Source: Salinimonas lutimaris (lineage in GTDB: Bacteria; Pseudomonadota; Gammaproteobacteria; Enterobacterales; Alteromonadaceae). From it: a DNA stretch of 64,000 nt. Positions within the stretch are counted from its first letter, which is position 1, and every line of letters begins with the position of its first letter. Position numbers and translations under genes: made by a program. The notes below the pieces were generated by a model, which saw only the letters and a list, made by a program, of their open reading frames with translations, was not told the DNA's origin and searched no databases. The stretch covers positions 3,000,001-3,064,000 of the forward strand of contig NZ_CP036536.1 in the NCBI RefSeq assembly GCF_005222225.1. Reading direction: 5' to 3'. Positions 6,616 to 21,933 of this stretch are shown piece by piece.

Positions 6616-6727
6616 ATTCCTCACACTGGTTCCCCGATATCAATGCACTGCAACATGTTATTGCGGTGTTGAGTGGACAACCGAACTGTTAACACTATAA
6701 AGAACATAATTTTCATTTACAACATAA

Positions 6728-6743
6728 TGAAATAAAAATTTCA
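6728..6743. promoter_or_regulatory. Predicted inositol-regulon operator in front of mmsA
   Basis: TGAAATAAAAATTTCA, the core of a perfect inverted repeat with 8-bp arms (6726-6745). It has the GAAA-N6-TTTC pattern found upstream of the other iol units and lies about 115 bases upstream of mmsA. Confidence 0.7.
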
Positions 6744-6934
6744 TTATTTTTTCATTCTTTCACCCGCCCGAAATTTATCGCTCCTCAATAGGCTTATTAC
6801 ACCCAACACGTCTTTATGCTTGATAAAGACAACGTTTAAGGCTTATGGAATCATGCAGCGTTAGAGTTAAAAGTGTAAAAAGTCCTGTGTTGTCCAGTAA
6901 AAATCCTATCAAATCAGTTCATCTTTAAAAAATA

Positions 6935-6974
6935 AGAAATGAATATTTCATTAACATATCATTTACCCTATACT
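6935..6974 (+). promoter_or_regulatory. Operator and overlapping promoter of the 7018 dehydrogenase
   Basis: AGAAATGAATATTTCA (6935-6950) repeats the GAAA-N6-TTTC pattern. A -10 TATACT at 6969-6974 sits 17 bases after a weak -35 TTTCAT (6946-6951) inside the right half of the operator, an arrangement suited to repression. An AGGAG ribosome-binding site is at 7008-7012. Confidence 0.6.
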
Positions 6975-7017
6975 CGCAGTCAGTCATATTCAGGCACTTC
7001 TCTACTCAGGAGACTTT

Positions 7018-8184
7018 ATGTTTAATGAAGAATTGCAATTCAAACCTGCTATTCGCTGGGGGATGGTGGGCGGTGGCCGGGGCAGTCAGATAGGCTACTC
7101 GCATCGGTGCGCCGCTCAGCGCGATGGGTTATTTAAACTCATGGCCGGTGCATTTGATTTAAATGCAGAACGAGGCCGATCTTTCGGGACTAATCTGGGG
7201 TTGTCGACAGAACGCTGCTACCCTGACTACACCACCATGTTTACAGAAGAAGCCAAACGCCCTGACGGTATAGAAGCAGTCTCCATTGCCACGCCCAACG
7301 CTACTCACTACGAAATCTGCAAGGCGGCTCTGCATGCCGGGTTACATGTTGTATGTGAAAAGCCCATTACCTTTACCAGCAAAGAAGCCAGCGAGTTACA
7401 GTCACTGGCAGAACAACAACAGCGCAAACTGGCCGTGATGTACGGCTATTCGGGTTATCCGATGATACATCAGGCTCGGGAAATGGTACGTCGTGGTGAT
7501 TTGGGCGAAATAAGAGTAGTCAACATGCAGTTTGCCCACGGCAGTCACAATATTGAACATGAGAAAAACGATCCGGGGCTGAAATGGCGGGTGAGTCCGC
7601 AGGTGGCAGGCCCCACCTATGTGCTGGGCGATATCGGTACTCACATATTTTATCTGTGCGAAATGATTACCGGTCTGGAAGTATCCCGGCTATCGTGTAT
7701 GAAACAGGCATTTATTCGTTCCCGCGCCCCACTTGAAGATAACGCTCATGTCATGCTTGAGTACACCAGTGGTGCGGTCGGCACCTTATGGGCATCAGCG
7801 GTCAATGCCGGTGCTATGCATCAGCAAAAGTTTCGCATTGTGGGCGAGAAAGCGTCAATAGAATGGTGGGATGAACACCCTAATCAGCTGCGCTATGAAG
7901 TACAGGGTGAGCCGGCGCGTGTACTAGAGCGTGGTAGCGCCTATTTGTATAACGACGCTGCCGGTGTTGCGGCCAGTCATATTGGTGTCGGTCACCCCGA
8001 AGGCTACTTTGAATCCTGGGCCAATCTATATCACCGGTTTGCATTAGCTTTCACCGGTCAGACAAGCCATGACGAGTCGCCCTTATGGTACCCGGATGTG
8101 TATGCCGGCATCAATGGCGTCAGGTTGTGCGAAAAATGCGTGGAATCAGCCACCAGTCAGTCTCAGTGGGTGAGCTTTTACTAG
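7018..8184 (+). CDS. Gfo/Idh/MocA family oxidoreductase, scyllo-inositol dehydrogenase-like
   Basis: A 388-residue NAD(P)-dependent sugar or cyclitol dehydrogenase. The nucleotide-binding loop is GGGRGSQIG (18-26) and the catalytic-lysine motif is CEKP (113-116). GDIGTHIFYL around residue 205 provides the conserved D-x3-H of the active site. At 388 residues it is longer than the 328-residue IolG in this window and clearly a different subgroup. The inositol context and separate operator suggest it oxidises another inositol isomer (scyllo or chiro) or an inositol derivative, as the IolW/IolX paralogues do in other bacteria; this is inference. AGGAG ribosome-binding site, 5-base spacing. Confidence 0.85.
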   Translation: MFNEELQFKPAIRWGMVGGGRGSQIGYSHRCAAQRDGLFKLMAGAFDLNAERGRSFGTNLGLSTERCYPDYTTMFTEEAKRPDGIEAVSIATPNATHYEICKAALHAGLHVVCEKPITFTSKEASELQSLAEQQQRKLAVMYGYSGYPMIHQAREMVRRGDLGEIRVVNMQFAHGSHNIEHEKNDPGLKWRVSPQVAGPTYVLGDIGTHIFYLCEMITGLEVSRLSCMKQAFIRSRAPLEDNAHVMLEYTSGAVGTLWASAVNAGAMHQQKFRIVGEKASIEWWDEHPNQLRYEVQGEPARVLERGSAYLYNDAAGVAASHIGVGHPEGYFESWANLYHRFALAFTGQTSHDESPLWYPDVYAGINGVRLCEKCVESATSQSQWVSFY

Positions 8185-8193
8185 ATACTTAGC

Positions 8194-8220
8194 CCCGCCG
8201 CACTGCTTCTGTGCGGCGGG
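8194..8220. terminator. Convergent terminator between the dehydrogenase and rpiR
   Basis: CCCGCCGCAC-(7-base loop)-GTGCGGCGGG, a perfect 10-bp GC-rich stem between the convergent genes. T-runs are poor on both sides. Confidence 0.7.
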
Positions 8221-8225
8221 TACAT

Positions 8226-9086
8226 TTACAGCTGGTTGCTGAAGTTATTCTGTTCACCCTCTTTAGTGTCGCGAAATGCCAGTGATACCGCCAGCGTCTG
8301 CGCCAGACATAACGACGCAGCCTGCGAGCGAAAAGCATCCACCTTAGCCTCTTTGACCACAAAACAAATATCAGATGATGAGGCCAGCGGGCTGATTTGG
8401 CTATCTGTAATGATGATCTGTTTGACCCCGGAACGGGCTACCGACTCACTGATGGTTGTTGTATCTTTGGCATACGGTGAAAAGCTGATCACAATCAACA
8501 CATCGTCGTTTTCGATGGTACTTAATTGCTCTTTAAACATGCCCCCGAGCCCATCGATTAAAAATGCACGCTTGTTAAGATGGCGCAGCGCATACGCAAG
8601 ATAAGACGATACTGAAAACGAGCGCCCCAGCCCCACTACGTACACATTCTTTGCCTGAGCCAGTATTTCTACGGCCTCGTCCAGATGCTCGACCGGTGTT
8701 TGTGCGGCCAGCTGGTGCATGGCGTTGCTATTTGCCCGCGCAAATTCCTGCAAAATATCCACCGGTCGCTCGGGTGGTGTGGTATCGCTTTCCAACTCTT
8801 TAAGCAGGCGAACGCGATCGGTGTAGCTGGACGTTTCTTCTAGCAGATTACTGCGAAACAGCTGTTTCATTTCATTAAAACCACTGAAATCAAACGCATT
8901 GGCAAACCGAATCAATGTTGAGGGCGGTACATCAGCTTGCTCGGCTATATCTGAGACGGTTTCAAATGCTACACTGTTTTTATTGTCCAGAACGTAGGCG
9001 GCAACCTGACGTAACCTTTTGCTCAGACTGTCATAGCGGGTACGAATTTGTTCTTCCAGTTCACTTAAGCTGGATGCTGTTGACAT
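8226..9086 (-). CDS. RpiR-family transcriptional regulator, probable inositol regulator
   Basis: Predicted 286-residue repressor. An RpiR-type N-terminal helix-turn-helix (about 1-80, with VSDIAEQADVPPSTLIRFANA as the recognition region in two pieces, VSDIAEQADV and PPSTLIRFANA) is followed by a SIS sugar-isomerase domain (about 135-265, VGLGRSFSVSS) that usually senses a sugar phosphate. I chose ATG 9086 because AAGGAG lies 7 bases upstream; a longer frame to 9137 lacks such a site. By position inside the iol cluster it is the best candidate to bind the shared GAAA-N6-TTTC palindromes, possibly with an IolC product as inducer. The gene follows the TSUP permease by 87 bases, where only a half-site (TTTGAAAT) is seen. 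Confidence 0.88.
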   Translation of the reverse strand: MSTASSLSELEEQIRTRYDSLSKRLRQVAAYVLDNKNSVAFETVSDIAEQADVPPSTLIRFANAFDFSGFNEMKQLFRSNLLEETSSYTDRVRLLKELESDTTPPERPVDILQEFARANSNAMHQLAAQTPVEHLDEAVEILAQAKNVYVVGLGRSFSVSSYLAYALRHLNKRAFLIDGLGGMFKEQLSTIENDDVLIVISFSPYAKDTTTISESVARSGVKQIIITDSQISPLASSSDICFVVKEAKVDAFRSQAASLCLAQTLAVSLAFRDTKEGEQNNFSNQL

Positions 9087-9173
9087 ACTGCACTCCTTAA
9101 TTATTGTTTTCGTAATTTTATGCAATTTGAAATGCAAATAAAATTTTTTTTCTATTTTTAGAATAAATAGCAG

Positions 9174-9920
9174 CTAATTCATACTATCTACTATCAATTT
9201 CAGACCAGATAGCAGCAAGCTGAAATGACATATTTGATAGATCAGCCTATGACTGGCCCGATTTAAAAATTTTACCCCCAGCCAGACTCCCAAAAGTGCC
9301 AGCGGCATTAACAGGGTCGCGGTAGCCAGGTTGGCGCTGTTCAGTTGCTCCATCAACCAGTAGGGAATCAGCTTGACCAGATTTACCACACCAAAAAATA
9401 CGGCCATCGTCGCTATCAATGTTTCTTTGGGCAACTTCAGCGGTAACAGATAAATACTGGCCGGGCCGCCGCCGGCATGAATCAGGGTACTGGAAATACC
9501 ACTTATCATGCTCCAGAAAGTAGCCCGGGCCGTACTAGCCGCTTTGTCTGCCGCAGGCTGAAAATGACAATAAAACTGAATAGCAAATAACACGCACAGA
9601 ACACCCACCGCCCCGGCTAACAGGGCCGGAGAAACCACTTTCATAAAGATGGCTGCCAGTGCAATACCTGCCAGTGCGCCAGGCAGCATTTGGCGTAGTT
9701 GATGCCAGCACGCATGGCGATGGTGACAGGCTATAGCGATGACATCCATTACCAGCAGAATGGGCAATAAAATAGCAGCGGCACGGGCTGGCGCTGTGGT
9801 CATGGTCATCAGCGGGATAGCGATAGTGCCCAGCGCGCCCCCCAGACCGCCTTTACTGATCCCGTAGATAAGCACCGCCGGTATCGCGGTAAAATAAAAT
9901 GTTATATCGGTCTCAAACAC
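9174..9920 (-). CDS. TSUP-family membrane permease (TauE/SafE type)
   Basis: A 248-residue polytopic membrane protein with about seven to eight hydrophobic segments and the N-terminal GISKGGLGGALG typical of the TauE/SafE (TSUP, PF01925) anion transporters, with the second-half repeat GISSTLIHAGGGPASIYLL. Family members move sulfite, sulfoacetate or other organic anions. The start read here is GTG 9920. It lies downstream of iolC-iolE, separated by a hairpin with a weak T-run, and upstream of rpiR, so it may be read with the iolCE unit. Its role in inositol use is unknown; export of an acidic intermediate is possible but unproven. Confidence 0.85.
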   Translation of the reverse strand: MFETDITFYFTAIPAVLIYGISKGGLGGALGTIAIPLMTMTTAPARAAAILLPILLVMDVIAIACHHRHACWHQLRQMLPGALAGIALAAIFMKVVSPALLAGAVGVLCVLFAIQFYCHFQPAADKAASTARATFWSMISGISSTLIHAGGGPASIYLLPLKLPKETLIATMAVFFGVVNLVKLIPYWLMEQLNSANLATATLLMPLALLGVWLGVKFLNRASHRLIYQICHFSLLLSGLKLIVDSMN

Positions 9921-9941
9921 ACTTTGTCCCGCATAAACAAC

Positions 9942-9963
9942 AAAGGCGTCAATTTTGACGCCT
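9942..9963 (-). terminator. Hairpin after iolE
   Basis: AAGGCGTCAA-TT-TTGACGCCTT, a near-perfect stem directly after iolE. On the minus strand it is followed only by TTGTTGTTT, so read-through into the TSUP gene and rpiR is plausible. Confidence 0.6.
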
Positions 9964-9988
9964 TATGCTGCGTTTTTTGTGCCAGGCC

Positions 9989-10882
9989 CTAGGCCATCAG
10001 ACCGGCTTCGGTAGCAAAGCGTTGCAGATTCTGATACCCCAGCGTGGCAAATTTCAGCGGGTTGGCAACAGCCGGATCCTGTTCGGCTTCCACCACCAGC
10101 CAGCCCGCGTAGTCATGTTCTTTGAGAATGGCAAATACCGCCGGGTAGTCCACACAACCATCGCCCGGTACAGTAAATACCCCTTCCAGTACACTGTTTA
10201 AAAAGCTTAGCTTGCGGTTTTTGACATCATTCATCACATCTTCACGGATGTCTTTACAATGTACATGTTTAATACGACCGGCCCAGCGTTTGGCCACGGC
10301 AACCGGGTCTGCGCCGGCAAAGGTCAGGTGACCGGTATCCAGCAACAATCCCACCTCATCACCGGTATGCTCCATCAGCTTGTCTACATCATCGGCTGTT
10401 TCTATTACTGTGCCCATATGGTGATGGTAAGCGATTTCAACGCCCATGCTTTTGGTGTACTTAGCAAACTCGGTCAGCTTTCTGCCATACTCCTGCCACT
10501 GGTCTGCCGGGAAGGTGGGGCGCAGATGAACCGGCGTTTTCTGAGCACCATGAATACAGCCGGTTACCTCGCAGCACACCATGGCTGTCGCGCCCAGTTC
10601 ACGCAGTAATGTCAGATGCTCGCGCACTGCTTCAATTTCTTCTTCCACTGACCGGGTCAGCAGCTCCATCGAATACCAGCCCGACACCAGTTTTAAGTCA
10701 TGCTTTGCCAGAATTGGCCCCAGCACACTGGCTTCACGGGGAAACTTATTGCCCAGCTCAAAGCCGGCATAGCCTGCCTGCTTACCTTCTGACAAACAGG
10801 TTTCCAGCGGGGTTTCAGCCCCCAGTGAGGGTAAATCATCGTTGGTCCAGGTTAACGGATTAATACCTAGTTGTACTGTCAT
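9989..10882 (-). CDS. iolE: Myo-inosose-2 dehydratase
   Basis: Second step of inositol catabolism: removes water from scyllo-inosose to give 3D-(3,5/4)-trihydroxycyclohexane-1,2-dione. The 297-residue protein has the xylose-isomerase-like TIM barrel with IolE hallmarks: GINPLTWTNDD near the start, YHHHMGT, LLLDTGHLTFAG, VHCKDIR and the C-terminal VVEAEQDP, which carry metal-binding acids and histidines. I chose ATG 10882 because AGGAG lies 8 bases upstream; an alternative ATG at 10903 overlaps the iolC stop as TAATG. It is translated directly after iolC in one operon. Confidence 0.95.
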   Translation of the reverse strand: MTVQLGINPLTWTNDDLPSLGAETPLETCLSEGKQAGYAGFELGNKFPREASVLGPILAKHDLKLVSGWYSMELLTRSVEEEIEAVREHLTLLRELGATAMVCCEVTGCIHGAQKTPVHLRPTFPADQWQEYGRKLTEFAKYTKSMGVEIAYHHHMGTVIETADDVDKLMEHTGDEVGLLLDTGHLTFAGADPVAVAKRWAGRIKHVHCKDIREDVMNDVKNRKLSFLNSVLEGVFTVPGDGCVDYPAVFAILKEHDYAGWLVVEAEQDPAVANPLKFATLGYQNLQRFATEAGLMA

Positions 10883-10902
10883 AGTGTTTACTCCTGTGTC
10901 CA

Positions 10903-12804
10903 TTAACCGCGGTCACGCCATAAGGTAATCAGGTTATGGTAGTTTTGCTTAATCTGGCTAACCAGCGTTTCATCATCTATTTTGCCGGCCAGCCAGTCTC
11001 TGGACGGCGCGCCGAACAGCGTACGGCCTACTGCAAAGCCTTTAACCTTGTCGCAGTGCACCGAATTATTAAAGCCTTCGGCCAGCTCCTGAGCCGGAGC
11101 GTCCAGCCCCAGCATAACGATACCGGCGCAATACGGGTCACGCTCATCAATCAAGGCTGACACACTTTGCCAGTTGGCACTGGTCAGCGGCGGCAGCTTC
11201 CACCAGTCAGGCTTCACGCCCAGGTTGTAGAACCGCTGCATAGCCCGAAGATAGAGCGCTTCATCCTGCTCAATATCACGCGGCAAAATGACTTCCAGCA
11301 ACAACTGATGTCCGGATTTACAACACGCATGCCATACATCCAGAATCTGACGCTCCTGTTGCAGGCGCAGTGAGTACTCATCTTCAGGATTGAAAAACAC
11401 CAGACACTTTACAATATGCTCTAGTGGCCAGTCGGTCAGCTGCGTACCAATATTGCCATGTTCCAGCTCAAGCGGGCGTGATCCCGGCAGTTCAATAGGC
11501 CGGCCAATCCACCAGCCTTGTCCGGTTACCTCATTCAGGACATCCTGACCAAAGGTGCTGTCACACAACAAACCGGACTTGTTTTGCAACCCAGCTTCAC
11601 TGGCGACTTGTTGACTGGCCTGTAGAATCAGTTTTTTCAGCGGTTTAATCTGCGCCACGTCAGCCCCCGCTTCCCGAGCCATATCCACGAACTGAATGCG
11701 GTGATCAAAAGCCATGACACACAGCTCTTGCCATTTTTGTTTGCGGGTCGTTACCCGGTGCAAATGATTCAGTTCATCATCCAGATCCGGCCGGGGAACC
11801 TCAGTCACCCGGCTCAGGTAATTATCCAGCTCCACCTTGGTTGGCATGGCCGGAGCACAGCCATGGCGAGATACCACCAGCGCGCCACAGGCATTGGCAT
11901 AGGCACAGCTTTGTTCCCAGCCCTCATCATTCAGATAACCGCGCAACAAACCGGACATAAAGGCATCTCCGGCGCCCAGCACGTTGAGAACATCAACCCG
12001 CACGCCCTGCACGTTGATACCGTCATCAAGACTTTCAGGAATGGCCTCACTGAACACTGCGCAGCCCAGCTCGCCGCGCTTACAGACCAGCTCAGCATTA
12101 CTGACTTCGCGGACACCTTTGAGTGCCTGAACAGAGTCAGTTGACCCTCCGGCAATATGAAACTCTTCTTCAGTACCCACAATCAGATCAAACAGGCCTA
12201 GCACTTCTTTAAGCTGTGCAGTAACCTCGCCCGACTCAACAAACCGGGTTTCACCATCACCCAGTCCGGTCAATCCCCACAGCACCGGACGATAATCAAT
12301 GTCCAGCGCGGTCTTGACGCCGTTACGACGGGCGTATTTGAGAGCGGTCAACACGGCATCCCGGGTTTGCGGATGTGACAGATGTGTTCCTGTCACTGCC
12401 AGACAACGGGCCGATGCGATATATTCTTCGCTGACATCTTCCGCGGTAATGGCCATATCAGCGCAGTTGTCGCGATAAAAAATCAGTGGAAATGTGTCCT
12501 GATCCTTTATGCCCAGCAGTACCAGCGCCGTCAGCCTTTCCTTATCCGTAATCAGGTGACTGGTATCACAACCAGCACGCTCCAGCTCTTCTTTTAAAAA
12601 CCGTCCCATGTGCTCATCGCCCACTCTGGCCAGCATGGAGGATTTTAATCCCTGAACCGCAGTGCCGTAGGCAACATTGCCTGACGAACCGCCCAGGTAT
12701 TTATTGAACGAGCCCATATCCTCCAGCCGCGAGCCAATTTGCTGACCGTACAGATCAACCGCGATTCTTCCCATACAGATGACATCGAATTTTTTGTTAT
12801 TCAC
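10903..12804 (-). CDS. iolC: Fused 5-dehydro-2-deoxygluconokinase / aldolase (IolC-DUF2090)
   Basis: A 633-residue two-domain enzyme. The first about 330 residues are a PfkB-type kinase (GGSSGN at 38-43, ATP/anion-hole GAGD at 277-280) that phosphorylates 5-dehydro-2-deoxy-D-gluconate. The rest is a DUF2090 domain (from about 355; AFDHRIQF) which in annotated fusions is assigned the 5-dehydro-2-deoxyphosphogluconate aldolase step, giving malonate semialdehyde and DHAP. That would explain why no separate iolJ is seen here. The start is GTG 12804 with GAGGAG 6 bases upstream. It heads the operon iolC-iolE, with two operator-like palindromes upstream. Confidence 0.94.
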   Translation of the reverse strand: MNNKKFDVICMGRIAVDLYGQQIGSRLEDMGSFNKYLGGSSGNVAYGTAVQGLKSSMLARVGDEHMGRFLKEELERAGCDTSHLITDKERLTALVLLGIKDQDTFPLIFYRDNCADMAITAEDVSEEYIASARCLAVTGTHLSHPQTRDAVLTALKYARRNGVKTALDIDYRPVLWGLTGLGDGETRFVESGEVTAQLKEVLGLFDLIVGTEEEFHIAGGSTDSVQALKGVREVSNAELVCKRGELGCAVFSEAIPESLDDGINVQGVRVDVLNVLGAGDAFMSGLLRGYLNDEGWEQSCAYANACGALVVSRHGCAPAMPTKVELDNYLSRVTEVPRPDLDDELNHLHRVTTRKQKWQELCVMAFDHRIQFVDMAREAGADVAQIKPLKKLILQASQQVASEAGLQNKSGLLCDSTFGQDVLNEVTGQGWWIGRPIELPGSRPLELEHGNIGTQLTDWPLEHIVKCLVFFNPEDEYSLRLQQERQILDVWHACCKSGHQLLLEVILPRDIEQDEALYLRAMQRFYNLGVKPDWWKLPPLTSANWQSVSALIDERDPYCAGIVMLGLDAPAQELAEGFNNSVHCDKVKGFAVGRTLFGAPSRDWLAGKIDDETLVSQIKQNYHNLITLWRDRG

Positions 12805-12857
12805 AGTAGCTCCTCGTTATGTTCGCACCACACCGCAGGGTAAAAAGTGTCGCGCTA

Positions 12858-12930
12858 AGGAATAAATATTTCACTATACCTTTTTACTGAATATCTATTT
12901 CAATTTCAACATTTTTGAAACAAATATTTT
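12858..12930 (-). promoter_or_regulatory. iolC promoter with two operator-like palindromes
   Basis: AGGAATAAATATTTCA (12858-12873, GGAA-N6-TTTC) and TGAAACAAATATTTTA (12916-12931, GAAA-N6-TTTT) are one-mismatch versions of the regulon palindrome. A minus-strand promoter with -35 TTGAAA (12903-12898) and -10 TATAGT (12879-12874), 18 bases apart, lies between them. Confidence 0.55.
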
Positions 12931-12970
12931 AAAAATGATATTTTTGGAATGCCGGCGGCAGGATCAGAAT

Positions 12971-13010
12971 AAAAAGCAGCGCACCAACAGGTATCAGATC
13001 GGTGCGCTGT
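12971..13010 (-). terminator. Rho-independent terminator of iolD
   Basis: AGCGCACC-(15-base loop)-GGTGCGCT (12978-13008, extended by C-G and a wobble pair) followed on the minus strand by TTTTT. It separates iolD from the iolC promoter, so they are distinct transcripts. Confidence 0.8.
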
Positions 13011-13021
13011 AAAACGTTGGA

Positions 13022-14959
13022 TTAGTAGTGACGTGCCTTGTCGCGGGCGGTATTATCCATCTCCTGCGCCGCCTCAGTAATGGCCGGATTGTCAGCGACC
13101 TGGGCTGTACCTACCCGCCACCAGGCTTCGTAGCCGTGGGTCATGGTTTTAGGTAGAATTTTAGTATCAATAAGCGTAGGGCCGTCATGCAACCGGGCCT
13201 CAGCCAGCGCAGCTTTGAGCGATTCGGCAGTGTTAGCACGAAAGGTTTTGCATCCGTAGCTTTGTGCATTGGCAGCAAAATCAACTTTAACCAGCGGGCC
13301 GTCCATTTTGCCGGACTGCGGGTTACGATGTCGGTTTTCGGTGCCAAAACTGCCCATTCCCTGGCTCATTTGCAGGTTATTAATACAACCAAAGCTGGCG
13401 TTATCAAATAATACGATGGTCATTTTCACACCTTCCTGAACGGCTGTTTGTAGCTCAGAATGCAGCATCATATAGGACCCGTCTCCCACCATAGCGTAAA
13501 CAGGCTGGGCAGGACTGGCCAGTTTGGCACCAAGCGCGGCAGCCACCTCATATCCCATGCAGGAATAGCCATATTCCATATGATAAGTATCGGCGCTACG
13601 GGCATTCCACAGTCGCTGCAGATCACCGGGCAGGGAGCCGGCTGCGCCCACAATGATAGCGTCATCTTCCAACTCGCGGTCCAGCACCCCCAGCGCACTG
13701 GTCTGGGTCAGCTCGGTGTTTAAACTCTCACGGTATTCTTTAAACTGCTCTTCGCTCAGATGGCCATCGACCTCTGGTGTAAACGGCTCGCTGAAAGTCA
13801 GGTTGAGTACACGCTCCCGCTCGTTTTGCCAGGCCAGGCGCGCCGCACTGATCTCATCGGAGTAGGCGCTTGTCCAGCCAGCTTCCTGTAGCAGTGGCGC
13901 TAGCATCTGAAGTGTTTTACGGGCATCACCCACCAGCTTCACCGCATCCAGCTTACCGGCATCAAACTCAGCAACGTTAATATTTAAAAACTGTACATCA
14001 GGATTGGCAAACAACGATTTGGACGCGGTGGTGAAGTCAGTAAACCGGGTGCCGATACCAATTACCAAATCTGCCTCTTTAGCGATAGTGTTGGCAGCCA
14101 GGTTGCCAGTGGTACCTATACCGCCTAAATTCAGCGGATGAGATGCAACCACTGCACTTTTGCCAGCCTGGGTTTCTCCGAAGGGGATTCCGAACGTTTC
14201 AGCAAAAGCTGCAAACTCGGTGTGGGCCTCTGAATAGCGCACCCCCCCGCCGCAAATCAGCAGCGGTTTTTTACTGTTAGCAATAAGGGCAAGCGCATCA
14301 TTCAGCATAGCGTCGGTTGGGGGACGCCGTTCAATACGATGCACTCGCCGGGAAAAAAAATACTCAGGGAAATCATAGGCTTCGCCCTGTACATCCTGGG
14401 GCAGGCATATGGTAACCGCACCGGTGTCAGCGGGATCAGTCAGAACCCGCATGGCCTGAATCATTGCTGTCATAATCTGCTCAGGCCGGTTGACCCGGTC
14501 CCAGTAACGGGATACCGGACGAAAACAGTCATTGGTGCTGATAGTATTATCGTGGAACTGCTCGACCTGCTGTAATACCGGATCGGGCTGGCGCGATGCA
14601 TAAACATCGCCAGGCAACAGCAACACGGGAATACGGTTGGCAGTTGCAGTGGCCGCGGCGGTCACCATATTGGCAGCGCCCGGACCGACAGAAGAAGTGA
14701 CCGCATAGATTTTTTTGCGCTTATGCTGTTTGGCAAACCCCATCGCCGCATGCGCCATTCCCTGCTCGTTACACCCCTGATGCACCACCAGATGACCGGC
14801 ATCCTGCTCCAGAGCCTGACCCAGCCCGACCACATTGCCATGTCCGAAGATAGTGAACACGCCTTCAATAAACGGCTGCTCAATACCGTCCACTTCAACA
14901 AACTGTTGATTCAAAAATTTCACCAGCGCCTGTGCGGTTGTCATTCTGATGGTACTCAT
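13022..14959 (-). CDS. iolD: 3D-(3,5/4)-trihydroxycyclohexane-1,2-dione hydrolase
   Basis: Ring-opening step of inositol catabolism, giving 5-deoxy-glucuronate. It is a 645-residue thiamin-diphosphate enzyme of the acetohydroxyacid-synthase fold: N-terminal Pyr domain ([13 protein letters not shown] near 33-45), central domain, and C-terminal PP domain with the ThDP/Mg motif beginning GDGSYMM at about residue 490 and closing with FDNASFG. Length and motifs match IolD. ATG 14959 is preceded by GGAG/GGTG-type sites. It is divergent from iolB with one perfect operator between them, and its need for ThDP links it to the thiamin salvage genes at 25.8-29.7 kb only in a general way. Confidence 0.96.
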
Positions 14960-15044
14960 TGCGTCACCACTCCATGAAAAAAAGAATTATCGATGCCGTT
15001 GTAACATCGTCAACGGCCTGTAAACAGGATATTAACAATACCAT

Positions 15045-15062
15045 TTGAAAAATAAATTTCAA
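15045..15062. promoter_or_regulatory. Predicted inositol operator between iolD and iolB
   Basis: TTGAAAAATAAATTTCAA, a perfect inverted repeat with 6-bp arms. Its inner 16 bases are identical to the operator in front of iolG. It can serve both divergent genes. A possible iolB promoter is TTGCTT (15088-15093) and TACTAT (15112-15117). Confidence 0.75.
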
Positions 15063-15217
15063 TTTAAATCTAATTTGAAATAAATGATTGCTTTCACCTT
15101 ATATTTACATCTACTATGACAGTACATTTATTCGAGTCAGGTTGTCAGCCCGACCAGGTCTGAACCGCGTTGCCGGCTGTAATAGCGTGACTGAATCAGC
15201 AATGAAATGAGGGAATT

Positions 15218-16045
15218 ATGTCAAAGTTATTATCCAAATATCAGGCGCCCAATGCCGATGGCCGTGTGCAGCACATCACGCCTGAGTCTGCCGGTTGGAA
15301 ACATGTTGGCTTCTCGGTATATGAGCTGGAAGCTGACAAGACGCTGACGATGCCAGCCATTGGCGAGGAAACCTGTCTGGTTCTGATTGGCGGTAAAGCC
15401 AGTGTACATACCGAAGCCAGACAATTTGATAATATCGGCGACCGGATGGGCCCGTTTGAGCGCAAAAAACCCTATGCGGTATATATTGCCCCGGGCGAAG
15501 AATATACCCTGACCGCTCATACCGCCTGTGAAGTGGCGGTGTGTCAGGCGCCGGCCAGGGGCGACCTGCCAACCCGGTTAATTGCACCAGATGACATTGG
15601 CGCAGAAGCCCGTGGTCATGGCAACAATAAACGCTATGTTCACAACATATTACCTGACAGCGAAATTGCGGAAAGTCTGTTAGTAGTAGAAGTGTATACC
15701 GATGAAGGCTGCACCAGTTCATACCCCAGCCATAAACATGATCATGCCAATGAGCCGCACGAAACCTATCTGGAGGAAACGTATTATCACCGACTGAACC
15801 CAGAACAGGGTTTTTGTCTGCAGCGTGTTTATACTGATGAGCGGGATCTCGATGAGTGCATGGCTGCTTACAACAAAGATGTGGTGCAAGTGCCCCGGGG
15901 CTATCACCCGGTGGCTACCATAGCCGGATACGACAGTTATTATCTGAATGTGATGGCCGGGCCCTCACGAAAATGGCTGTTCACCTGGGAGCAGGACCAC
16001 GCGTGGGTAAACACCCAGGAGTATGCCAACAAGCATGCAAAGTAA
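15218..16045 (+). CDS. iolB: 5-deoxy-glucuronate isomerase
   Basis: Isomerises 5-deoxy-glucuronate to 5-dehydro-2-deoxy-D-gluconate, the substrate of IolC. The 275-residue bicupin protein shows the conserved IolB metal site SYPSHKHDH (about 168-176) with the downstream glutamate LEETYYHRL, and VPRGYHPVATIAGYDSYYLN in the C-terminal cupin (as VPRGYHPV and GYDSYYLNVMAGP). The length is typical. A GAGGG ribosome-binding site precedes ATG 15218. It is transcribed alone, divergent from iolD. Confidence 0.96.
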   Translation: MSKLLSKYQAPNADGRVQHITPESAGWKHVGFSVYELEADKTLTMPAIGEETCLVLIGGKASVHTEARQFDNIGDRMGPFERKKPYAVYIAPGEEYTLTAHTACEVAVCQAPARGDLPTRLIAPDDIGAEARGHGNNKRYVHNILPDSEIAESLLVVEVYTDEGCTSSYPSHKHDHANEPHETYLEETYYHRLNPEQGFCLQRVYTDERDLDECMAAYNKDVVQVPRGYHPVATIAGYDSYYLNVMAGPSRKWLFTWEQDHAWVNTQEYANKHAK

Positions 16046-16054
16046 GCGGCAGGT

Positions 16055-16774
16055 TTATACTGCTACCGACCGGCGCACTACCGGCCCGAGTAAAGGAGTG
16101 CGCCGGCCAAATATATCGGTCACCTGAGCCAGAAATAACTCACCGGTAGCCACAGCATCAGCAAACGCATTGTGGGCCAGATAAGGGGGTAATCCCCGAC
16201 GCTCCCTGATGCCCGCCAAACGAAAATCCGGCTCTATAACGCCATCGTTAAAGACCATGGTTTTTTCCAGGGTCAGGGTATCCAGAAACACCAGTGGCAC
16301 TTTTACATCGGCTGGGATCCCCAGTAACCGGTGCATAAACTCTTTTTCTATCCAGCCCCAGTGAGCAATCACAATTTTACCGGCCAGCGCTTTTACCAGC
16401 ACCTCACATAACTGCTGCGGAGGCATTCCCCCTTTAAGAGTTTCCGGTGTAATGTGATTAATCACCGCAGTATCCGGTACAATTTTTTCACCGGCTTTGA
16501 CGTAATAATGCTGAGCCGACGACAGTGACATAAAAGGATACTTAAGATTCAGCATACCGACTGACAAAATCGAGTCTTTTGTCGGATCCAGTCCGGTGGT
16601 TTCAAAATCCAGTACAACACACTCCAGCTTGCCAAGCGGCGTATCAGCCTGCGGTACAGGATGCTCAAACAGCGGCCGGGCAATATCAGGAATATCGGTA
16701 CGTTTTAACGCCTGTAACCGCTGCTTTTCCTGTTTGGCAAGCGGGTGAAAGCGGTCAAATAGTCCGCCGGTCAT
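16055..16774 (-). CDS. DnaQ-like 3'-5' exonuclease
   Basis: A 239-residue DEDDh exonuclease of the DNA polymerase III epsilon fold. ExoI is LDFETTGLDP (about 54-63), ExoII/III follow and the final HNAFADAVAT (about 205) supplies the catalytic histidine and aspartate. The start overlaps the stop of the DUF294 gene by four bases (ATGA), so the two are translationally coupled. This pair is recurrent in proteobacteria, often near a sodium/solute symporter, as here. A housekeeping role in replication is unlikely since true epsilon pairs with rnhA; its substrate is unknown. Confidence 0.88.
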   Translation of the reverse strand: MTGGLFDRFHPLAKQEKQRLQALKRTDIPDIARPLFEHPVPQADTPLGKLECVVLDFETTGLDPTKDSILSVGMLNLKYPFMSLSSAQHYYVKAGEKIVPDTAVINHITPETLKGGMPPQQLCEVLVKALAGKIVIAHWGWIEKEFMHRLLGIPADVKVPLVFLDTLTLEKTMVFNDGVIEPDFRLAGIRERRGLPPYLAHNAFADAVATGELFLAQVTDIFGRRTPLLGPVVRRSVAV

Positions 16775-18630
16775 ATCAGAATTCCGGCGGCATGAAAGCG
16801 CTGCTGCGCGGCTTCCTGATAACGGGCGATAATCCGAAAGGCATCTTTTAAGTGATTGCGCTCAAAGGCGGTGAGTTTGTCAGGAGCAATCAGGTTATCC
16901 TGCAGTCCTCCGGCTACGGCCGCCTCATTCTGGTGTTTAAAGCGCACCATATTGATAAACTGAAACGCTTCCTGGAGCTCCTTACGACTGGCCTGATTAA
17001 TCACTTTTTTATTCGCCGCATCCCGCAACCGATGAATGGTTTCAGTGGCTGAACTGCCGGCAGCCAGCGCGTACACCCGGGCCAGTTCCACAACCAGATT
17101 AACCGCCTGCTTTTTAATATTCAGCACCTGGCGGTTATCACCATCACGGGTAGTCACAAATTTACGAAATAGCCCCAGCGGCGGACTAACCCGCAGAGAG
17201 TTGGCCACCAGAATGGCAAAAAAGCGATGATTACGTTCTACCCGGGCCAGTAGCGACTGTTTCAGGGCTGCCACCAGATGCTCTGTGCCATATAAAAAGC
17301 GCAGGTCGAGAAATACACTGATATCCAGAATATTTTGCGGGTTGTTTTCAGCCACCCATTGCCGGACATAATCCTGCCACAGGGCCAGCGGCACTCGCCA
17401 GCGCTCATTACTGGCCATAATGTTTCCTTTGCATAAGGGATAACCGCAATGATCAAGCCCCTCGCAGACAAACTCGGTCAGCGTTTTAAAATATTCCGCC
17501 TCATGTTCCTCCGGCTCCCACTGCAATATCAGTCCGTTATCCTGATCAGAGCCCAGATGCATCTCAAAGCGGGCTTGCGAGCCCGCGCAGAACCAGGCGT
17601 AAGGAATCGGTGCGGGGCCAAACTTATCTTCGGCAAGCTGTAAAATCCGCTTGTTAAAGGCATCGGCAATCAGGGTGACCATTTGCTGAATAGCACGGCC
17701 ATCAACCCGGGCTTCCTGCAAGGCTTCAAACACTCCCTGGCGCTGTGGCACCAGAGCCACCAGATCTTGCAGGGTATTTTGCCGGTAAATCTGACTAATC
17801 AGATATACCGCCTGCACATGAGAGTTTTCGACCATACTGGTGGCAGTCAGCACGCCCACGGCTTCGCCATTTTCAATCACCGGCAATGAGCGCACATTGT
17901 GTTGCATCATGACCTCAATAGCCTGCATTAAAGGTGCATCCGGATGCACGGTGCGCGGGCGTGAGGTCATAATATCTGATACCGGCGAGGCAGGATCCAT
18001 GCCCACCGCCAGTACCCGGGTAGTCAGATCGCGGTCGGTGACTACACCTTTTAGAATCTTGTTATCAAACACCAGTGCATTAGAGCGATGCATTTCTGTC
18101 ATCACCTCTGCCACGCGTCGGATAGAGGTATCCATGCTGACCCGCGCAACCCGGCGGTTCATAACATCGCGAACATTGCGCAGATACAGCGCTTCCTCGC
18201 CGTCGATGTGGGCTGAAGAATGAGCAAGCCGAACCGACTCCTGAGATGAGAAATGATTACGCAGACCCGGGTTCTGGTCCATCAGCTCCAGAATAACCTG
18301 TTTGGGAATGCGGTATAGCAGGGTATTTTCTATCGCCTTGATAACATAGTCGCACTCCCCTTCACGATAAAGCTGACTAAAACCAAAAATGTCCTTGTCG
18401 CCCAGCCGGGTTCGCAGACTGCCATCCGGGTGGTTCTGATCAATAGCGCCGGTTCGCACCAGGTACAGTCCCTGCCCCACAATATGTTCGCCGGGCAGGT
18501 TCTCATTTTGCTTGAGATACAGAATATCAACCGATGCGGCCAGCGCGTGGCGCTCTTCTTCATGCAGTAAATCAAACGGATCCACTTCGGATAAAAAGCT
18601 GACAATATTAGGGAGTAATGAAGATTCCAT
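16771..18630 (-). CDS. cNMP-binding/CBS/DUF294 putative nucleotidyltransferase
   Basis: A 619-residue signalling protein. In order: a cyclic-nucleotide-binding-like domain (about 15-125), two CBS motifs (about 150-280; RVAEVMTEMHRSNALVFD and VLTATSMV), a DUF294 nucleotidyltransferase-like domain with the metal motif GSQARFEMHLGSDQDN (about 347-362, pattern GS-x9-D-x-D), and a DUF294 C-terminal domain. The architecture resembles GlnD-type regulators, and CBS domains usually sense adenine nucleotides. It is coupled to the exonuclease by a four-base overlap. It starts 66 bases past the symporter stop with a strong terminator between, so it is probably independent of the inositol operon despite its position. 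Confidence 0.88.
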   Translation of the reverse strand: MESSLLPNIVSFLSEVDPFDLLHEEERHALAASVDILYLKQNENLPGEHIVGQGLYLVRTGAIDQNHPDGSLRTRLGDKDIFGFSQLYREGECDYVIKAIENTLLYRIPKQVILELMDQNPGLRNHFSSQESVRLAHSSAHIDGEEALYLRNVRDVMNRRVARVSMDTSIRRVAEVMTEMHRSNALVFDNKILKGVVTDRDLTTRVLAVGMDPASPVSDIMTSRPRTVHPDAPLMQAIEVMMQHNVRSLPVIENGEAVGVLTATSMVENSHVQAVYLISQIYRQNTLQDLVALVPQRQGVFEALQEARVDGRAIQQMVTLIADAFNKRILQLAEDKFGPAPIPYAWFCAGSQARFEMHLGSDQDNGLILQWEPEEHEAEYFKTLTEFVCEGLDHCGYPLCKGNIMASNERWRVPLALWQDYVRQWVAENNPQNILDISVFLDLRFLYGTEHLVAALKQSLLARVERNHRFFAILVANSLRVSPPLGLFRKFVTTRDGDNRQVLNIKKQAVNLVVELARVYALAAGSSATETIHRLRDAANKKVINQASRKELQEAFQFINMVRFKHQNEAAVAGGLQDNLIAPDKLTAFERNHLKDAFRIIARYQEAAQQRFHAAGILI

Positions 18631-18644
18631 GCGATCACTTTAAA

Positions 18645-18677
18645 TAAAAAAGGCAGCAACACACGGTGCTGCTGCCT
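18645..18677 (-). terminator. Rho-independent terminator of the symporter gene
   Basis: AGGCAGCA-(11-base loop)-TGCTGCCT followed on the minus strand by TTTTTT. It ends the iolG-symporter transcript. Confidence 0.85.
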
Positions 18678-18696
18678 GCAATTAACTCAGCTATTG

Positions 18697-20403
18697 TTAC
18701 TGGCTAACGCTGTGAATACGCTCTTTTTGTACCCGTGCGTTGCGCCCCAGTTCTTTGGCAATGCACCAGAATACATAACCCAGCGACGCGGCTGCCAGCA
18801 CATAATATGCACTTAGTACCCAGTTTGGCTTATTTTGGGCCAGAAATACATACATAGACACAGAACTTAGCGCAATCAATATCGCTACCGGGCGGGTCAT
18901 TGACCATGGCGTGATATCAACCTGCTTGGTATAAACATCCTCATGTGGCGCCTGAGGATAAAGCTTACCAACCACCAGCATAAAGGCCACATTGGCAGCA
19001 AACAGCAACCCAACCAGATGGAAAAAGTGAATATCTACCTTAAATATAAAGTTAAACAGAATATAGGCAGAAACCCCGAACAGCAGGCCAAGCTTGGCCG
19101 CAATAGCAGGCACCCGTTTGGTAAGCAGGCCTACCAGCACAACACTGAGAATCGGTGCATTAAACAGTCCCTGTAACTGCTGAATAAGGTAGAACAGTCC
19201 ATCAGGTGCATTAGCCACCAGTGGGGCTACCGCCATTGATACCACAGCCAGACCCAGGCCAAGGGCTTTACCCACATTCACGGTCTGTGCTTCTGAGGCA
19301 TCGGGCTTCAGTGACTTTTTGTAAATATTGACAGTAAACAGGGTCACCGACGAGTTAAGTCCGCCACTAAATGTAGAGAACACAGCGCCCACCACAACGG
19401 CGGCAAAGAAGCCAACCAGCACGTTAGGCAGTACCAGCTGTACCAGATCCGGATAGGCATTATCCGGGTTATCCATCTGACCATTGAACACATGGAAAGC
19501 AACAATACCGGGCAGAATAATAATGCTGGGGATCATCAGTTTGAAAAAAGCACATAACAGTACGCCCTTCTGACCTTCCGCCAGATTTTTCGCACCAAGT
19601 GCTTTTTGCACAATAGACTGATTACAACACCAGAAGAACATATTCGAGACAATCAGACCGGTAAACAGCGTTGAAAACGGCACCATTGAATCTTCATCCC
19701 CGATGGAATTGAATTTTTCCGGGTGACTGGTGTAAACCTCGCTTAATCCGCTTAAGATATTGCCGTCACCAACATAAGCCAGCGCAAACAAGGTCACCAT
19801 CAGGCCACCAATAATCAGACCCACTCCGTTTATAGTATCAGCAACCGCAATGGCTTTAATGCCCCCAAATACAGCATATATAGCACCGATACCACCTACA
19901 CCCCAGACTACCAGCCAAAGTGCGGTTTGCTGGTCGACATTAAACACACTGGATACCTGAAACAAACTTTCCAGTGCAATTGCCCCGGTGTACAACACAA
20001 TAGGAAGCAGGGAAATGACATACATACCCAGAAACAAAATTGAGGTAATGGTCAGGGTTTGTTTATCAAAGCGCTTTTCCAGATATTCAGGAATGGTAGA
20101 GATACCGATTTTGAGATAACGGGGTAAAAAGAAAATTGCAAACAGCACAATAGTCATAGCGGCCATGACTTCCCAGGCCATGACGATAAACCCGGTGCGA
20201 AAGGATAATCCGTTAAGGCCAACCAAATGCTCGGTAGACAGGTTCATCAGCAACATAGAACCGCCAATGTAAGCGCCGGTCAGTGACCGCCCTCCCAGAA
20301 AATATCCCTCGGTAGAGTCGGTAAGGTGTGCATTGCGTGTTTTATAATAGGCAAATCCGGCTACCAGTAGGGTAAAGCCGATAAAAGAGATAAAAGCTAA
20401 CAT
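18697..20403 (-). CDS. Sodium/solute symporter (SSS family), probable inositol transporter
   Basis: A 568-residue inner-membrane transporter of the SSS family with about 14 hydrophobic helices. It resembles the Vibrio sodium/galactose symporter vSGLT in order and sequence: STEGYFLGGRSLTG near the N-terminus, NLSTEHLVGLNG, IGISTIPEYLEKRF, FWCCNQSIVQKALGAK and SGGLNSSVTLFTVNIYK (sodium-site region). It is downstream of iolG in the same direction (111-base gap with a hairpin) behind the iolG operator, so inositol uptake is the likely role. The DUF294/exonuclease pair next door is elsewhere also associated with SSS transporters. Confidence 0.9.
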   Translation of the reverse strand: MLAFISFIGFTLLVAGFAYYKTRNAHLTDSTEGYFLGGRSLTGAYIGGSMLLMNLSTEHLVGLNGLSFRTGFIVMAWEVMAAMTIVLFAIFFLPRYLKIGISTIPEYLEKRFDKQTLTITSILFLGMYVISLLPIVLYTGAIALESLFQVSSVFNVDQQTALWLVVWGVGGIGAIYAVFGGIKAIAVADTINGVGLIIGGLMVTLFALAYVGDGNILSGLSEVYTSHPEKFNSIGDEDSMVPFSTLFTGLIVSNMFFWCCNQSIVQKALGAKNLAEGQKGVLLCAFFKLMIPSIIILPGIVAFHVFNGQMDNPDNAYPDLVQLVLPNVLVGFFAAVVVGAVFSTFSGGLNSSVTLFTVNIYKKSLKPDASEAQTVNVGKALGLGLAVVSMAVAPLVANAPDGLFYLIQQLQGLFNAPILSVVLVGLLTKRVPAIAAKLGLLFGVSAYILFNFIFKVDIHFFHLVGLLFAANVAFMLVVGKLYPQAPHEDVYTKQVDITPWSMTRPVAILIALSSVSMYVFLAQNKPNWVLSAYYVLAAASLGYVFWCIAKELGRNARVQKERIHSVSQ

Positions 20404-20480
20404 GAGAACTCCATAATGCGATAAGACGCTCCTGCTTAAAATGACTCACCAGGAGCTTCTTCCCATTGATGTAGATAACT

Positions 20481-20505
20481 GGCGCAGCCGTTCTATGCCT
20501 GCGCC
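20481..20505 (-). other. Intercistronic hairpin between iolG and the symporter gene
   Basis: GGCGCAG-(11-base loop)-CTGCGCC without a T-run, just past the iolG stop. It may stabilise the upstream mRNA or lower expression of the transporter. Confidence 0.45.
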
Positions 20506-20514
20506 TGTCGCCGT

Positions 20515-21501
20515 TTACAGTTTGACTTCCTGCCCGGTTTGTAATGACTCCAGGGCCTTGTCGGCAATCAGCAATGCCTGTTCACCGTCATGCCCACTGC
20601 ACTCAGGCTCTGCTCGCCCGGCCAGCACATCAACAAAATGAGCCCACTCAGCACGGTAGGCTTGCTCATAGCGCTGCAAAAAGAAATGCTCAGGCTTGGC
20701 ACTTACGCAACCATTTTCACCCCAGACTTCTACGGTATCTTCGTTGATGTTTTTCGCCTGCAAAACACCTTTTTCACCATGCACTTCAATGCGCTGGTCA
20801 TAGCCATAGCCCGACCGACGACTGTTGCTGATGGTGGCCAGCGCACCAGAAGGAAATTTCATCACAATAAATGCTGTATCAATATCTCCGGCCTGGCCTA
20901 TTTCATCGTCCACCAGCGTACTTCCCTGCGCGTACACCGAAACCGGCTCCTCACCCATGATAAAACGAGCCATATCAAAATCATGAATGGTCATATCACG
21001 GAACAAACCGCCGGAAACCTTAATGTAGCTTACCGGTGGCGGAGACGGATCACGTGAAGTGATCAGCAGCGACTCTGCTTTACCTATGGTACCGGCACTG
21101 AGTTGTTCACGGACTTTACGAAATTGTGGATCGTAGCGGCGGTTAAAGCCGACAAACAATTTGCCACTATTGGCTTTAACCGTTGCCAGGCAATCGCGTA
21201 CCCGTTCAATATCCAGATGAACCGGCTTTTCGCAGAAAATAGTTTTACCGGCCTTAGCAGCCAGTTCAATGAGCTCGGCGTGGGTGTCGGTAGCAGAGGC
21301 GATCAGTACACCGTGAACATTCGGGTCAGTCAGGGCTTCCTCAGTGGTCTGAACTTTTGCGGCATATTTCTCAGCCAGTTTAGCTGCACCATCGCCATAC
21401 GGGTCGACAACACTGTATAGTGAGGTTTCTTTATGACCATCAATGTTGGCAGAATGTACTTGCCCGATACGACCTGCACCAAATAAAGCAATATTAAACA
21501 T
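20515..21501 (-). CDS. iolG: Myo-inositol 2-dehydrogenase
   Basis: First step of the pathway: NAD-dependent oxidation of myo-inositol to scyllo-inosose. The 328-residue Gfo/Idh/MocA protein has the Rossmann loop GAGRIG (8-13) and the catalytic-lysine motif CEKP (90-93). The inositol-dehydrogenase pattern NRRYDPQF follows (about 119-126), then FRDMTIHDFDMARF, which provides the active-site D-x3-H. It is closer in length and motifs to known IolG than the 388-residue paralogue at 7018. It leads the operon iolG-symporter, behind a perfect operator. Confidence 0.95.
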   Translation of the reverse strand: MFNIALFGAGRIGQVHSANIDGHKETSLYSVVDPYGDGAAKLAEKYAAKVQTTEEALTDPNVHGVLIASATDTHAELIELAAKAGKTIFCEKPVHLDIERVRDCLATVKANSGKLFVGFNRRYDPQFRKVREQLSAGTIGKAESLLITSRDPSPPPVSYIKVSGGLFRDMTIHDFDMARFIMGEEPVSVYAQGSTLVDDEIGQAGDIDTAFIVMKFPSGALATISNSRRSGYGYDQRIEVHGEKGVLQAKNINEDTVEVWGENGCVSAKPEHFFLQRYEQAYRAEWAHFVDVLAGRAEPECSGHDGEQALLIADKALESLQTGQEVKL

Positions 21502-21612
21502 AGGGTAGTCTCCTGGTTATTAGTCGGTTATCACCCTGCGCAGGCGTTCAAAAGCACAGTCTCTCAGAGCAATTTACCGCGTTTTATTTTTCAACACAGA
21601 CATACCATAACA

Positions 21613-21630
21613 GTGAAAAATAAATTTCAC
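21613..21630. promoter_or_regulatory. Predicted inositol operator in front of iolG
   Basis: GTGAAAAATAAATTTCAC, a perfect inverted repeat with 6-bp arms; its inner 16 bases are identical to the iolD-iolB operator 6.5 kb away. A further ATGAA-ATT-TTCAT lies at 21642-21654 with different spacing. Confidence 0.75.
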
Positions 21631-21870
21631 AAAATAATAATATGAAATTTTCATTCTTTTAGCGTTAAAACCACACTGGTTAGACCATTAACACTTGAAA
21701 CAACTTTGTAACGACACCCCGTCGGGCGTACAAAGGCCCAGCATAACGCATTGATTACAGTATTTTTTACTCTATAAACATCGTGAGTTACCGTGGCTGA
21801 AAGACGGTGAAAAAGACAAAGCAGCCAGGTGAAATGTTAACAGAAAAACTCGTCAGTTTTTCTTCGTCCA

Positions 21871-21897: not shown

Positions 21898-21933
21898 CGA
21901 AAATTTTGTTTCATTTTTAATGTCGCTGTTTAT

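Follow-up and report, generated by a model that had tools for sequence, protein, structure and literature searches.

Which protein reads the short palindrome that recurs in front of the inositol genes of Salinimonas lutimaris, and in what arrangement is it read? The DNA in question is a 15-kb iol cluster within a 64,000-nucleotide stretch of contig NZ_CP036536.1 (positions 3,000,001 to 3,064,000; hereafter the window). A preliminary description of the stretch had listed six sites of the form GAAA-N6-TTTC and named the RpiR-family gene inside the cluster as their natural owner. All six were found where it had placed them (Table 1), and the two sites that it called identical, 15046-15061 and 21614-21629, both read TGAAAAATAAATTTCA. 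The form itself is exact in four of the six; the sites at 12858 and 12916 carry one mismatch each (a GGAA left half and a TTTT right half, respectively). A site does precede every main unit, namely mmsA, the dehydrogenase gene, iolC(-iolE-TSUP-rpiR), iolD and iolB (which share one) and iolG(-symporter-CBS-exonuclease). Comparison with related loci indicates that these sites are very probably operators of the cluster's own RpiR-family repressor (IolR), with paired sites binding dimers of dimers. A phasing of 28-31 bp between sites and a distant porin gene are additions to the earlier account.

Palindromes of this kind could simply arise from AT-rich promoter DNA, as parts of UP elements or H-NS-like sites, with no dedicated reader. 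The cores are indeed nearly AT-only, and the bare pattern GAAA-N6-TTTC, which the window contains six times (shuffles, 1.18 +/- 1.14; four of the six are the listed sites), is found genome-wide at 109 places, compared with 133 for the reversed control pattern. This count speaks against our interpretation, and because there is no genome-wide enrichment the bare pattern predicts little on its own. A position matrix was built from 80 related loci with the window left out, seeded with TGAAA-N6-TTTCA at no more than one mismatch; after four rounds it held 192 distinct sites. The six window sites scored 15.97-20.18 bits with this matrix. When the four iol intergenic regions were shuffled 2000 times with dinucleotides preserved, 11 shuffles had one match above 15.9 bits and none had more, a mean of 0.0055 against the 6 observed, and the other intergenic DNA of the window (7629 bp) gave no match above 12. 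The worry that the motif might be as dense in other DNA is borne out for the bare pattern genome-wide and, within the intergenic DNA of the window, not for the full matrix. Upstream regions with a GC content of 57-59% show the register and the spacing as well. An origin in AT-rich chance was rejected on the matrix scores and shuffles, and we consider a motif with no reader very unlikely. A seventh window match above 15.9 bits lies inside the symporter gene, which counts against the specificity of the matrix (TGAAACAAACTTTCCA, 19958-19973; at 16.3 bits it scores like the weaker promoter sites); it is probably a chance match. A further match, CGAAAATTTTGTTTCA at 21898-21913 (15.3 bits), adjoins the hairpin CCGGCTAAAAGCCGG some 270 bp upstream of the main iolG operator and may be either chance or a remote operator; the hairpin was read by eye and is missing from the list of the hairpin/promoter scan.

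Exact TGAAA-N6-TTTCA occurs at 10 places in the 4.12-Mb genome, 3 of them within the cluster. The remaining seven, five intragenic and two intergenic with unlike cores, were rejected as operators, five of the seven being inside genes. The more specific consensus WGAAAYAAATATTTCA, allowing one mismatch, is found at five places, four of which are cluster sites; since the consensus was made from those four, only the fifth, upstream of a porin gene, is news.

The 80 relative loci were retrieved through the window RpiR. Across them, iol upstream DNA (68.5 kb) holds 112 copies of GAAA-N6-TTTC, other upstream DNA (126.7 kb) 27 and coding DNA (1,331 kb) 99. An unbiased count of palindromes with gaps of 0-16 placed TGAAA-N6-TTTCA first among 5-mers (73 versus 10 in other intergenic DNA); among 4-mers TGAA-N8-TTCA, which marks the same sites, came first, AAAT-N9-ATTT second and GAAA-N6-TTTC third. 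The "other" background class includes unlabelled iol genes and transporters, so these enrichments are lower bounds. Intergenic stretches of up to 700 bp entered the palindrome count, and those of up to 900 bp the matrix scan and site-spacing count. Sites above 12 bits were found upstream of iolG in 57/66 cases, rpiR in 64/70 (many of these regions being shared with a divergent gene), iolC in 16/19, iolB in 11/15, mmsA in 19/28, iolD in 7/18, the symporter gene in 6/28 and the dehydrogenase gene in 1/3; the counts were 0/10 for iolE, 0/4 for TSUP, 0/5 for CBS and 90/536 for unlabelled genes. This distribution fits sites at the heads of operons.

We also collected 57 further stretches (L134-L190), 47 of which were grouped by kinship; the 10 others have few or no iol genes beside rpiR. 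In two groups of other gammaproteobacteria GGAA-N6-TTCC or TGGAA-N6-TTCCA ranked first. A group of 13 genomes from another class of the phylum, taken as alphaproteobacteria, together with L158 of the same class, gave TGGA-N8-TCCA first and GGAA-N6-TTCC second. Closer to the window, five genus and family loci had GAAT-N4-ATTC in second place, and two loci from the genus placed GAAAT-N4-ATTTC third and GAAA-N6-TTTC fourth; the list of the order-level group was headed by AAAT-N9-ATTT, with TGAA-N8-TTCA fourth and ATGAA-N8-TTCAT fifth. A class-wide search with RpiR returned 7 of 369 genomes and added little; its new loci (L192-L193) were scanned only. One matrix fits groups inside and outside the class, all on the 16-bp GGAA-N6-TTCC register. 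The published Caulobacter sites TGGACCATATGTTCCA and TGGAATATGCGTTACA (PMC2597717) lie on this register too, and the window motif is therefore the operator already known for IolR, carrying A where that has G at position 3 of the half-site. The six window sites have A at this position in 11 of 12 half-sites and G in one, rather than a uniform G, and the relatives show mixtures of A and G; we accordingly class the system as a variant of the RpiR-type IolR regulon. The proposal of a related but shifted motif thus holds as to relatedness only. A shift was rejected, because register and spacer equal those of the alphaproteobacterial GGAA-N6-TTCC and the difference is one substitution per half-site.

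The sites also keep a fixed distance from one another. For the spacing count, 109 of 301 sites were kept after removal of similar contexts (218 flanks, the six window sites included). The offset to the next site peaks at 29 bp (12 flanks) and 30 bp (6 flanks); other offsets were 40 bp (6), 105 bp (4) and 24 bp (3), with 0-2 elsewhere from 8 to 110. Half-sites follow the same rule: TGRAA begins 13-14 bp past the palindrome in 32/218 flanks, compared with a mean of 1.4 per offset, and the offset seen for the half-site at 15076 is the commonest in relatives. Partners at 28-31 bp were then counted with a hand-set matrix neutral at position 3, a pair of two strong sites being counted from both ends. 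In the six groups, 19/90, 11/32, 4/12, 10/20, 8/20 and 15/42 flanks had a partner, against shuffled means of 2.1, 0.7, 0.3, 0.6, 0.3 and 0.25, respectively; in the 80 loci the figure was 115/610 against 14.9, and in the unlabelled-gene class 33/140 flanks were paired. In the window, partners accompany the sites before mmsA, iolC and iolG and the site between iolD and iolB (Table 1). The iolG arrangement, 21614/21643, is repeated before iolG in several Enterobacterales loci, and all nine iolC promoters among the 59 genomes of the genus, that of the window included, have a pair at 28-29 bp.

Sites every 28-31 bp in all six groups suggest binding by dimers of dimers. The same spacing could instead be promoter geometry, with independent RpiR dimers on sites that flank the -35 and -10 elements and no contact between the proteins. 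Most single flanks have no partner, several strong sites, the one at 6935 among them, stand alone, and promoter-like hexamers overlap the sites or fall between them, though the hexamer scan was uninformative (25 versus 18.8 +/- 4.0 in shuffles). Against such geometry, one and the same spacing is found before different genes, in triples (29 + 29 bp in the window and L153, 30 + 29 bp in L156) and, at 30 and 29 bp, near the porin gene. Two adjacent sites at fixed spacing are also what is described for MurR, an RpiR relative proposed to bridge its two sites over 47 bp (PMC12713135). Independent dimers are the less likely account, and we prefer dimers of dimers.

Who, then, owns the sites? Of 398 genomes, 67 have iolC (E <= 1e-120) and 57 an RpiR match (E <= 1e-45). 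As a control we took 18 iolC stretches from 16 genomes with iolC and no such RpiR match. Nine of them hold a more distant RpiR-like gene, and strong sites (above 12.5) were found in 9/9: four have 30-bp pairs before iolC and five have sites only around rpiR. Of the nine stretches with no RpiR-like gene, 4/9 have a strong site, namely L264, L268 (none before iolC), L269 (18.7 bits, between iolC and iolG) and L273 (eight matches, mostly with AT-only cores); the other five have neither gene nor strong site, one of them being only 5.4 kb long. The association of RpiR with the palindrome across these loci is real but not perfect. The four exceptions would be expected if a regulator encoded elsewhere owned the sites and rpiR were a bystander or a mere modulator, as would the weakness of the site before rpiR in the window. 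The palindrome nevertheless goes with rpiR across differently arranged clusters, and 64/70 of the relatives' rpiR upstream regions carry a site. In Caulobacter, moreover, loss of IolR derepresses, and mutating one of two sites on the same register, which lie 59 bp apart before iolC, raised iolC promoter activity, the second site having no effect in that medium (PMC2597717). A regulator from elsewhere is in our judgment improbable. Ownership by rpiR, as first proposed, is thus supported by comparison (80 loci; 9/9 versus 4/9), binding itself being a prediction. The earlier statement that only a half-site precedes rpiR is nearly right here, although a weak full site can be discerned, and it does not extend to the relatives.

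Several observations weigh against ownership by RpiR in paired sites. Because RpiR served as the query for retrieving the relatives, the link between motif and regulator is in part one of ascertainment. The ownership control is small (18 stretches); besides its four exceptions, the five stretches with sites only around rpiR have no site above 9 within 350 bp before iolC. The window genome has no strong site before rpiR (best 11.2 bits). The partner counts are not independent, as groups contain near-copies, and no phased partner was found in the flanks of the 6935 site. Finally, an iolR mutant of Ensifer aridi did not induce iolC (PMC8877191); plain repression is therefore not universal.

The sites, their match to the matrix, their phasing and their conservation are read from the sequence; what we infer is binding by RpiR, repression, a tetramer and an inducer. 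Each 16-bp TGRAA-N6-TTYCA unit would take one dimer through its N-terminal helix-turn-helix, and a second dimer would occupy a further site, often a weaker one, at a distance of 28-31 bp (about 2.8 helical turns). The dimer of dimers, covering about 45 bp, would block transcription of mmsA, the dehydrogenase gene, iolC-iolE-TSUP-rpiR, iolD, iolB and iolG-symporter. Binding of 2-deoxy-5-keto-gluconate 6-phosphate, the inducer proposed for other IolRs (PMC5349611, PMC8877191), to the SIS domain would free the repressor. In this lineage the repressor would mostly meet A at half-site position 3, where alphaproteobacteria have G.

The base at position 3 was compared with RpiR residue 54 in 59 loci. 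Loci with Pro have 59 G and 215 A half-sites (29 loci), those with Thr 19 G and 9 A (4 loci), those with His 27 G and 4 A (10 loci) and those with Gln 55 G and 13 A (16 loci); of the basal Pro loci, L147 has no sites and L148 has 3 G and 3 A. In a structure model (monomer, mean predicted local distance difference test score 88.3) Pro54 directly precedes helix 55-64. The recognition helix of NanR comprises residues 50-61 with Arg56 (PMC12713135), and helix 55-64 is taken as its counterpart because Arg60 is invariant among the aligned RpiR proteins, the NanR sequence itself being outside the alignment. On a tree of 59 RpiR proteins one change suffices for Pro54 (support 75/67; 1-2 changes over bootstraps), and the preference of Pro54 proteins for A is therefore one event and a correlation only; it was rejected as independent evidence. 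GC content was made unlikely as the cause within the genus: at similar GC (0.45-0.50), iolC promoters vary with RpiR type, those of L220-L223 being rich in A and those of L224-L227 in G. As a hypothesis, the residue before the recognition helix may set the base at position 3 (Pro54, A; Gln, His or Thr, G).

The fifth WGAAAYAAATATTTCA-like match in the genome, at 872441, stops 33 bp short of where an OprB-family porin gene (PF04966; at 872490) is predicted to begin. Further upstream lies the array 872239/872269/872298. The region, outside the window (genome 868803-873845, L191), holds three tandem OprB-family genes, and sites are found only before the third; the other two have no site above 12 in 1.5 kb upstream, one having an 11.3-bit match inside its coding start. 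Elsewhere in the genus, the 1.5 kb upstream of 22 OprB relatives likewise lacks any site above 12 (best 11.9); as iolC is present in six of the genomes concerned, a porin is not a general member of the regulon. Import from Vibrio was not supported: a search of 9 genomes of Vibrio, Photobacterium and Psychromonas and of one from the same order gave no porin relative at E <= 1e-20. We predict that the porin gene is a local paralogue placed under the repressor and a member of its regulon. Taken together, it seems reasonably likely that RpiR inositol repressors across proteobacterial classes read a periodic operator of two to three TGRAA-N6-TTYCA units 28-31 bp apart, with the spacing conserved and the position-3 base drifting with residue 54, and that this rule finds a recruited porin.

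The cluster may have come from outside the genus. The window RpiR shares 87-90% identity with its counterparts in Vibrio cincinnatiensis, V. fujianensis and V. metschnikovii (90% for V. cincinnatiensis), and these Vibrio loci share most genes, the CBS-exonuclease pair included, in a different order. Within the stretches fetched for five Vibrio loci, L015 (V. rumoiensis) alone shows the dehydrogenase gene, and TSUP is confined to L011 and L015. In the tree, the window RpiR joins Vibrio, Enterobacterales and two same-genus iol-cluster RpiR proteins with starred support; no characterised IolR is present by name. In the genus iolC is present in just 9/59 genomes, and the eight versions besides that of the window are 58-67% identical. 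The high identity to Vibrio RpiR suggests horizontal transfer, and a Vibrio-like donor would be the simplest reading. Other species of the genus (L220-L227, L170, L171, L186-L189) carry two further distinct types of iol cluster, with their own RpiR of about 46% and about 40% identity and A- versus G-type operators.

The genes are collected in Table 1. The products of mmsA, iolE, iolC, iolD, iolB and iolG pass NCBIfam cut-offs, and rpiR is encoded inside the cluster with HTH_6 and SIS domains, as is an RpiR-type IolR; its start is placed at ATG 9086, the open reading frame staying open up to TTG 9137. From gene order and strand, the units appear to be mmsA; dehydrogenase; iolC-iolE-TSUP-rpiR; iolD; iolB; and iolG-symporter-CBS-exonuclease. 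The symporter is probably for inositol uptake, judging by gene context. The symporter is accompanied by the CBS-exonuclease pair in L068, L146 and the Vibrio loci L011-L015 as well; a CBS/DUF294-exonuclease pair is a neighbour of acetate symporters. Elsewhere in the window are two tandem arrays, at 34764-36961 (165-bp unit, 13.3 copies, 92% matches) and 62699-63177 (148-bp unit, 3.2 copies), whose consensus units both hold words of the CCGGGATCTC/GAGATCCCGG type.

Table 1. Genes and predicted operator sites of the iol cluster, in window coordinates.
Feature	Position	Strand	Placement	Basis or score
mmsA/iolA (methylmalonate-semialdehyde dehydrogenase)	5086..6624	-		TIGR01722
Weak partner AAGAACATAATTTTCA	6700..6715		28 bp from 6728	8.8 bits
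Predicted operator TGAAATAAAAATTTCA	6728..6743		upstream of mmsA (- strand gene)	20.2 bits
Predicted operator AGAAATGAATATTTCA	6935..6950		upstream of Gfo/Idh/MocA dehydrogenase (+)	16.5 bits
Gfo/Idh/MocA family dehydrogenase	7018..8184	+		Pfam
RpiR-family regulator, predicted site owner	8226..9086	-		HTH_6 (PF01418) + SIS (PF01380)
Possible weak site TAAAATTTTTTTTCTA	9139..9154		upstream of rpiR	11.2 bits, borderline
TauE/TSUP-family membrane protein	9174..9920	-	strand shared with iolC-iolE-rpiR	PF01925
iolE	9989..10903	-		TIGR04379
iolC kinase-aldolase fusion	10903..12804	-		NF047869
Predicted operator AGGAATAAATATTTCA	12858..12873		upstream of iolC	16.0 bits
Weak middle site CTGAATATCTATTTCA	12887..12902		29 bp from 12858 and from 12916	7.6 bits; 10.3 with position-3-neutral matrix
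Predicted operator TGAAACAAATATTTTA	12916..12931		upstream of iolC	17.7 bits
iolD	13022..14959	-		TIGR04377
Predicted operator TGAAAAATAAATTTCA	15046..15061		between divergent iolD and iolB	18.8 bits
Half-site TGAAA	15076..15080	+	30 bp from 15046	read from sequence
iolB	15218..16045	+		TIGR04378
CBS/cNMP/DUF294 protein + RNase_T exonuclease	16055-18630	-	behind symporter	
SSS-family sodium/solute symporter	18697..20403	-		NF007790, PF00474
iolG	20515..21501	-		TIGR04380
Predicted operator TGAAAAATAAATTTCA	21614..21629		upstream of iolG	18.8 bits
Secondary site TGAAATTTTCATTCTT	21643..21658		29 bp from 21614	10.5 bits

The alphaproteobacterial IolR motif and binding by Salmonella IolR were already known; the texts consulted give neither an operator sequence on the Vibrio/Enterobacterales side nor a spacing rule. 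In the available portions of the Caulobacter, Salmonella, Aeromonas and Ensifer IolR studies no operator sequence is given for an RpiR-type IolR of the gammaproteobacteria, nor any site period, and term searches found no IolR named in the Shewanella sugar encyclopedia (PMC2996990) and no IolR operator sequence in PMC5723671 or PMC10783015. The matrix and the 28-31 bp ruler provide a means to predict inositol regulons and account for two sites per promoter, and the base preference is reduced to a one-residue hypothesis that is easy to test. RegPrecise lists IolR regulons for several gammaproteobacterial orders and may hold the motif.

Among known systems, the IolR proteins of Bacillus subtilis and Corynebacterium share name and pathway and are not homologous to the RpiR type (PMC2597717). 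The NanR site of S. pneumoniae contains the half-site TGAAA, as here, and MurR and NanR share effector binding by the SIS domain; unlike the present system, both have different ligands, and S. pneumoniae NanR has a shorter spacer and activates (PMC12713135). For E. coli MurR a tetramer bridging adjacent sites is proposed to cover 47 bp in total, and two units here span about 45 bp. IolR of Salmonella Typhimurium, compared by its published description, binds at two or more sites, of high and low affinity, in most iol promoters and oligomerises (PMC5349611), the available text giving no operator sequence; the strong and weak pairs found here fit that picture. The closest likeness is to the IolR of Caulobacter and other alphaproteobacteria, an RpiR-family repressor in an iol cluster with a 16-bp palindrome of the same register and N6 spacer. 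Caulobacter differs in having G where the window sites mostly have A, and no site period or middle site is described in the available text; its two sites before iolC lie 59 bp apart, and those of the window 58 bp apart, with a weak site midway.

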